Translations under genes and position numbers: made by a program
Part shown: positions 63,057 through 64,000 of the stretch, one piece after another
Position numbering within the stretch: the first letter of the stretch is position 1
How the letters are laid out: each line of letters starts with the position of its first letter
NCBI GenBank assembly: GCA_018335585.1
Contig: JAGXRZ010000052.1
Span: forward strand, 1-64,000
DNA length: 64,000 nucleotides
From: Selenomonadales bacterium
GTDB lineage: Bacteria; Bacillota; UBA994
Reading direction: 5' to 3'
The notes under the pieces: model-generated
The model's database searches: none
Told to the model about the DNA's origin: nothing
What the model saw: the letters and a program-made list of their open reading frames with translations, nothing else

Positions 63057-63085
63057 ATTATACAACAATTCTTGTGTGTTGAGTG
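63057..63085 (-). promoter_or_regulatory. Promoter of the sensory-hydrogenase operon, with -35 touching the tandem repeats
   Basis: On the minus strand TATAAT at 63062-63057; the -35 position (63085-63080) reads CACTCA, a poor match, and its outer two bases are the first two bases of the heptamer array starting at 63084. Confidence 0.6.
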
Positions 63086-63136
63086 TGCACTTTGCACTTT
63101 GCACTTTGCACTTGGCACTTGGCACTTGGCACTTGG
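63084..63136. repeat. Heptamer tandem repeat, TTTGCAC/TTGGCAC type
   Basis: Seven consecutive 7-bp units: one TGTGCAC, three TTTGCAC, three TTGGCAC, then a partial unit. Confidence 0.95.
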
Positions 63137-63155
63137 TGGATGACGGGGGGGTTGC

Positions 63156-63179
63156 TGGCTCCTGGCTCCTGGCTCTTGG
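63156..63179. repeat. Heptamer tandem repeat, TGGCTCC type
   Basis: Two TGGCTCC units, one TGGCTCT and a partial unit, all 7 bp, unrelated to its neighbours. Confidence 0.9.
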
Positions 63180-63187
63180 TAGAGGGG

Positions 63188-63218
63188 AGTGCCCAGTGCA
63201 CAGTGCACAGTGCCCAGT
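63188..63218. repeat. Heptamer tandem repeat, AGTGCAC type
   Basis: AGTGCCC, two AGTGCAC, AGTGCCC and a partial AGT. The units are also palindromic at their centre (GTGCAC). Confidence 0.92.
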
Positions 63219-63251
63219 AGAGCGTGTCGCGGTGGTATCCGGCTCTATTTA

Positions 63252-63277
63252 ACCTTTCCACCTTTCAACCCTTCAAG
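63252..63277. repeat. 8-bp tandem repeat, ACCTTTCC type
   Basis: ACCTTTCC, ACCTTTCA, ACCCTTCA and a partial unit; degenerate. Confidence 0.75.
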
Positions 63278-63283
63278 CTGAGC

Positions 63284-63304
63284 GCTGCGTGCTGCGTGCT
63301 GAAG
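63284..63304. repeat. Heptamer tandem repeat, GCTGCGT type
   Basis: Two GCTGCGT units and a diverged third (GCTGAAG). Confidence 0.75.
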
Positions 63305-63311
63305 CCCCCTG

Positions 63312-63341
63312 TTCACGATTCACGATTCATGATTCACGATT
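63312..63341. repeat. Heptamer tandem repeat, TTCACGA type, running into folC
   Basis: TTCACGA twice, TTCATGA, TTCACGA and a partial unit. The folC TGA stop (63322-63320) and its last codons are inside this array. Confidence 0.93.
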
Positions 63342-64000
63342 GCCCCACCGCTCAAAGCTCTCCTCGCCTCCGACACAGTGTACAAGGACCCTGCTACAAG
63401 CACGGTTTCGCCGCTTTCTCGGGCAGCGTCGATAGCGGCACTTAGGGCATCGGCCACCGAGGTGTAGGCTGCGGCGGGTAGGCCTAGAGCTTCGGCCAGC
63501 AGGCAAAGCTCGCCTGCGGGAGTAGCGCGCGGCAGCGCGGGCGCGCAGGCGTAGAGGCATTTAACGTAGGGAGAGAGAGCCGCTAACATTGCCTGCGGCT
63601 CTTTGTCTTTCATAATCCCACTTACCAGTAAAACTTTTTGCCCCGGCAGGTATTGGCGAAGCGTGGCGACAAGGGCGCTAATTCCATGCATGTTATGCGC
63701 GCCATCCATAATGACTCGTGCGCGGCTATGCTGCATAACCTCAAACCGCCCCGGCCAGCGCGCCGCCGCGACGCCCCGCCTGACGTGCTCGATGCCAATC
63801 GGCCAACCTTGCTGCCTAAGCATCAAGGCGGCGTCCACGGCGAGAGCGGCATTTTGCAGCTGGTGCGGACCAAGCAGTGATATTGAGAGCTTCTCGATGG
63901 CCTCAAGACCCCGGTAGTCGAACGTCTGCCCGGCGAGCGAGGCCGTTTGCGCAACAAAGCTGTAGTCCCGCCCCAGTAGGCGCAGGGGTGCGTTGTTCTG
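63320..64000 (-). CDS. folC: Folylpolyglutamate synthase / dihydrofolate synthase (5' part beyond the window)
   Basis: The last 226 residues are present; the frame is open to the right edge. GPHQLQNAALAVDAAL and VIMDGAHNMHGI (the Mur-ligase-type FDGAHN motif) identify FolC, which adds glutamate to folates. The C terminus AIVNHES is coded by a tandem repeat array. An internal GTG at 63838 is not the start. Confidence 0.92.
   Translation of the reverse strand, partial: QNNAPLRLLGRDYSFVAQTASLAGQTFDYRGLEAIEKLSISLLGPHQLQNAALAVDAALMLRQQGWPIGIEHVRRGVAAARWPGRFEVMQHSRARVIMDGAHNMHGISALVATLRQYLPGQKVLLVSGIMKDKEPQAMLAALSPYVKCLYACAPALPRATPAGELCLLAEALGLPAAAYTSVADALSAAIDAARESGETVLVAGSLYTVSEARRALSGGAIVNHES

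Follow-up and report, generated by a model that had tools for sequence, protein, structure and literature searches.

An ordered composite of heptanucleotide tandem arrays dispersed between genes of a Selenomonadales bacterium

Introduction

Heptamers have been called the most abundant kind of intergenic tandem repeat over a wide range of prokaryotes, where their function is without a clear clue (PMC6344855). The contact length of the polymerase has been proposed as favouring a unit of 7 (Mrazek 2007, as relayed by PMC4679880 and PMC4692102). The arrays described here resemble these prokaryotic heptanucleotide SSRs in that period 7 is dominant and most arrays are intergenic, origin and function being left unexplained in those papers (Mrazek 2007 via PMC4679880; PMC6344855). 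However, those reports deal with each array singly, whereas here unrelated arrays together with a core make up one ordered and dispersed composite.

Several heptamer families have been described individually. The tandem heptanucleotides of Calothrix and Nostoc, and the GGGAATC-type repeats of Xanthomonas and Nostoc (PMC4692102), are likewise dispersed and intergenic, vary in unit number and differ between close relatives, but the Xanthomonas/Nostoc repeats are built on one G-rich motif with a preference for four units, whereas the present arrays use many motifs, mostly not based on G-runs. The TAACTGA direct repeats of Beggiatoaceae (PMC4679880) are also intergenic heptamers with a patchy distribution over phyla; they consist of one word, with related words rare, and lie mostly just upstream of start codons, in contrast to the 50 to 92 word classes (depending on threshold) found here without orientation bias. 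Element H4 of Geobacter metallireducens (GGGACCG in four units, 49 copies; PMC2700814) shares with our arrays its dispersed, multicopy, tandem-heptamer character, but has one word per element, also occurs inside genes, and was termed a putative regulatory element. Finally, REP/RAYT systems are dispersed, intergenic and non-coding, and Y1 transposases are encoded in the genome studied here, but a REP element requires a conserved palindrome and the core of our composite has no supported stem. An excess of heptamers in bacteria is published; a composite that sets many heptamers in order did not turn up among the open-licence papers searched and appears to be new.

Results

The window, i.e. the whole 64,000-nucleotide stretch analysed (G000:C52:1-64000), belongs to a 2.34-Mb draft genome of 69 contigs that is 96% complete (G000, the source genome). 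Near its end, five arrays of period 7 and one of period 8 had been predicted, and Tandem Repeats Finder (TRF) recovers them all at 63,086-63,341 (Table 1). The first array is reported by TRF at 63087-63136 with period 7 (GCACTTG/TTTGCAC, 7.1 copies) and resolves into two overlapping runs, TTTGCAC followed by TTGGCAC. With an exact run defined as at least 10 matched steps, all six period-7 runs of the window lie in this block and there are none of periods 3-6 or 8; the chance of six such runs within 260 bp is about 1e-22 at the rate of a Markov control. The array between the heptamers does have period 8 here, as originally described, but it is not a separate kind, since the same slot elsewhere carries CCTTTAA or CACCTTT with period 7. 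Comparable substitutions are seen at slot C, which in other copies is AGTGCCC, AGTGCTC or AGTGCCT, and at the position of the GCTGCGT array, which is elsewhere GCTGAGT, GCTCACA or GCTTACA. Slot I encodes the final residues of the minus-strand FolC protein and its stop (NHES, then TGA).

Table 1. Features of the array block and its flanking genes (positions in the window).
Feature	Position	Strand	Evidence
Flanking gene, HATPase_c_2 protein, 144 aa	62577..63011	-	Pfam PF13581, E 1.9e-10
Slot A, GCACTTn array (TTTGCAC then TTGGCAC), ~7 units	63086..63136	+	TRF, exact-run scan; slot recurs in other copies
Spacer A-B, tggatgacggggggg...	63137..63154	+	recurs as tggaggacgagggg in other copies (sequence comparison)
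Slot B, TGGCTCC array, 3.6 units, period 7	63155..63179	+	TRF, exact runs, other copies
Slot C, AGTGCAC/AGTGCCC array, 4.4 units, period 7	63188..63218	+	TRF, exact runs, other copies
Core, non-repetitive, agtagagcgtgtcgcggtggtatccgg...	63216..63248	+	profile search
Slot F, CCTTT-containing array, period 8 here (AACCTTTC, 3.2 copies)	63251..63276	+	TRF, comparison of copies
GCTGCGT array, 2.6 units, period 7	63284..63301	+	TRF, comparison of copies
Slot I, TTCACGA/TTCATGA array, 4.3 units, period 7	63312..63341	+	TRF
Flanking gene, folylpolyglutamate-synthase-like (folC-like), Mur_ligase_C, continues past window end	63320..64000	-	Pfam PF02875, E 7.2e-20

The tandem-repeat scan that the original prediction had proposed was run on 864 kb of the source genome (the window and 40 further stretches of 20 kb each). 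It returned 184 exact runs of period 7 against 8 of period 8 and 5 of period 6 (15 of period 14), an excess of more than 20-fold, and the Markov control contained 2 period-7 runs. Array clusters occur at about 102 per Mb, or some 240 genome-wide by extrapolation, mostly between genes; because the sampled stretches come from seven longer contigs first noticed via repeat matches, this density may be somewhat high. By our own codon-based gene calls, under which the sample is about 90% coding, 158 of the 184 period-7 runs are intergenic, called genes hold 13% of array bases as against 90% of all bases, and arrays are present in 55 of the 165 intergenic gaps of at least 100 bp. The words fall into 92 classes at a laxer threshold and 50 at a strict one. 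The longest array (L301:6467-6790) comprises about 45 units, AAGTGC(C/T) throughout but for a few AAGAGC, and its two variants are grouped in runs. No period-7 run occurred in 344 kb sampled from other genomes of the phylum, so the abundance is a lineage trait and not general to the phylum. Of 300 genomes drawn from the phylum, 2 carry an AGTGCCC array, and both belong to this genus. The suggestion that such a mosaic is unusual in a Firmicute agrees with the phylum sample, but has to be set against the wide occurrence of heptamer excess in prokaryotes (PMC6344855).

A DNA search of the source genome with the block as query identified 72 places. When copies are read side by side, the arrays follow the order GCACTTn, TGGCTCC, AGTGCnn or CGTGCTn, core (agtagagcggtgtcgcagtgg...), CCTTTnn, GCTnACA, GCCTnAA, GATTCAy, GGCTGGC and AAGCGAC. 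Across 56 multi-slot clusters this order gave 287 concordant pairs and 27 discordant pairs, compared with a mean of 114 discordant pairs (minimum 94) for shuffled slot orders; the slots were defined by eye after viewing, partly from the same copies later tested. In 49 of the 56 all slots lie on one strand. Some spacers between slots are conserved across copies, whilst unit sequence and unit number differ; the terminal slots are not the same in all copies, many of which lack slots at either end. Within the 864 kb a profile of the core has 26 matches at E up to 1, of which 19 have E below 0.01. Slot C arrays mostly continue directly into this core, and selection on the junction could be an alternative cause of the direct join. 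With its slots recurring in fixed order around a conserved core, the block in the window represents a single copy of a composite dispersed over the genome.

Two kinds of palindrome were also noted. One, perfect-looking (GTAGGGACGTGCGTTCGCACGTCC...GGACGTGCC...GGCACGTCCCTAC), lies within two composite copies (L068:5150-5231 and L028) and is perhaps a small insertion element. The other, of type GAAGCAAAAGGGACGGAGCTTTTTGCTTC, is found repeatedly in intergenic positions and next to genes for RAYT-like Y1 transposases (L047:11380-11420, L301:1100-1130 and L027) and may be a REP-like element of these transposases.

Ten orthologous gaps, picked by their arrays in the source genome, were aligned with those of a congener (G003), one genome per species being compared. 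The gaps span 117-338 bp in the source genome and 21-215 bp in the congener; all are longer in the former, as is to be expected of sites chosen for its arrays. At one site chosen the reverse way, the congener has the longer gap with an array and the source genome a short gap. At the ten gaps the arrays of the congener are missing or mostly of other heptamers, and at several, including those at efp and gpsA, it has none; at the efp site two further congeners have arrays, a short one of AAGCGGC in the third and one of TTTGTCT in the fourth. At one site (L064/L120) the arrays of the two species, of AGTGC and AGCGGAT type, are related and stand in the same order. At the end of folC, a TTCACGA-type array is common to both species and the remaining composite is found in the source genome only; the congener's orthologue likewise terminates in an array, of ATTCATG, at that position (L088:480-512), and this array, read by eye, gives the same NHES ending. 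The core profile had no match in 496 kb of this congener. Next to a sequence resembling a tRNA gene on the opposite strand, the two species have different arrays, TTGTGAT and CCTCTTG, that end at the same base (L059:1426-1473 and L111:2770-2790).

Abutting arrays are alike. In the source genome they differ in register at 1.4 of 7 bases, as against 5.2 for random pairs, and the corresponding values for contigs from far phyla are 1.5 and 5.2. These far-phylum contigs, though chosen for one word, hold many other heptamers too. Arrays of TTCACGA (3.6 units, exact over 25 bp) are found in many bacterial phyla among the matches listed (L163-L242); no special cause need be sought for this spread, word classes numbering about 1170 and genomes 85,000. 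A vocabulary of words common across phyla was considered and rejected, since 5 of 72 classes are shared where 3.1 are expected. An exact 22-base pattern of the core had no match in viral contigs; a composite copy matched no phage, and matched a Granulicella plasmid once, over 55 bp.

The composite gave no evidence of function. Fold signals are near 0 on both strands (z-scores -0.11 and +0.10), Rfam has no match for it, and no covariation was detected in the core. A core hairpin proposed by eye was rejected, there being no changes on both sides and paired cells scoring no higher than shuffles. Relative to tandem genes, 17 composites are co-directional and 14 opposed, so that no orientation bias is evident.

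Repair genes were compared within the family. Loss of MutS as a cause was rejected, MutS being present in 8 of 8 family genomes sampled. SbcD and full-length SbcC were not found in three members of the genus (G000, G002 and G003) and are present in a further congener (G001) and in sister genera, G004-G007 included; this pattern of absence amounts to one event on the tree. Arrays are many in G000 and G003, with G002 barely sampled; the 56 kb covered of G001, in stretches picked for matches, hold a single strict period-7 run. G004, however, has SbcD yet also period-7 arrays, again in stretches picked for matches. In other phyla, SbcD passed the cut-off in 6 of 39 genomes with TTCACGA arrays, compared with phylum baselines of 32/80, 7/60 and 13/59 (pooled 52/199; p = 0.22); restricted to the three matched phyla, it did so in 0 of 13 array-bearing genomes (p = 0.017). 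A link between loss of SbcCD and array abundance is suggestive at most, a lead and not a result.

Discussion

The original prediction held that unrelated words of one period point to a mechanism that counts length and not to copies of one element. Length is indeed the common factor, given the excess of period 7 and a sharing of words with far phyla that is at chance; the second half of the statement is not supported, because slot order is fixed and the core conserved genome-wide. Our preferred reading, which we regard as probable, is that of a non-coding, intergenic, dispersed composite whose period of 7 is maintained by local unit copying, which spreads by recombination, and which most likely has no sequence-specific function. 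The composite would be made up of slots in series, with one short heptamer array per slot and with order, strand, spacers and core conserved. Within a slot, 7-bp units may be gained, lost or replaced by copying of an adjacent unit, either by slippage or by short unequal exchange; the likeness of abutting arrays fits units copied from neighbours with occasional change. Plain slippage alone gives no preference for 7 over 6 or 8. Between sites, pieces of the composite could be copied by recombination that uses shared arrays as homology, a step that is not directly visible because copies share no common ends. The composite would mainly occupy the space from one stop codon to the next start.

One competing explanation is independent slippage at each site, the mosaic being separate arrays crowded into intergenic space with no element at all. 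Different heptamers at the same orthologous sites in the congener, the single word family that makes up 40 of 84 clusters and the mosaics of independent-looking words in other phyla all agree with it, but it does not account for a fixed slot order and strand or for a conserved non-repeat core. The order test largely refutes it for multi-slot clusters, and although it may apply at single-array sites, as a general account it is unlikely. That the slots are selected as parts of a regulatory or structural element (a protein-binding array or a transcribed RNA) would explain the same order and core, and the presence of arrays in about a third of the larger intergenic gaps; we nevertheless consider it similarly unlikely, in view of the lack of fold signal, core covariation or Rfam match, the random orientation to genes, and the empty orthologous sites, efp and gpsA among them. 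An assembly artefact, for which the draft state of the genome might be cited, is very improbable: short arrays of this kind, internal to contigs, turn up at numerous loci whose flanks differ, and congeners assembled separately have heptamers too.

Two enzymatic origins were also weighed. Mobilisation in trans as a transposon-like element, with RAYT-like Y1 transposases as one possible agent, draws on the five Y1_Tnp matches of the source genome, on composites directly upstream of two of these genes and on the GTAG that adjoins slots B and C. It is very doubtful, however, since Y1_Tnp is found in 8 of 8 genomes of the family, including some with few arrays in the stretches sampled, no hairpin is conserved, start and stop slots differ among copies, and a separate GGGACGG palindrome adjoins the Y1 genes. 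Writing of heptamers by a templated reverse transcriptase (telomerase-like, retron or diversity-generating element) would suit a fixed step of 7, given a short template, but is scarcely credible: RVT_1 has no match in the 96% complete source genome and several in sister genomes, and even the strict count of word classes is far too many for one template.

A bolder reading takes these composites for protein-free dispersed elements of a new class, assembled entirely from heptamer-array modules; their own arrays would serve as portable homology for spread, and they would flourish in a lineage that has lost the SbcCD nuclease. We think this quite unlikely at present; were it true, the abundance of heptamers in a bacterial lineage would reflect the repair nuclease that the lineage is missing. 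This genus presents heptamers in a dissectable form, with many copies, a fixed order, empty orthologous sites and words that change in place. Its close relatives with and without SbcCD offer a natural comparison, through which the copying of 7-nt units and recombination between arrays become testable.
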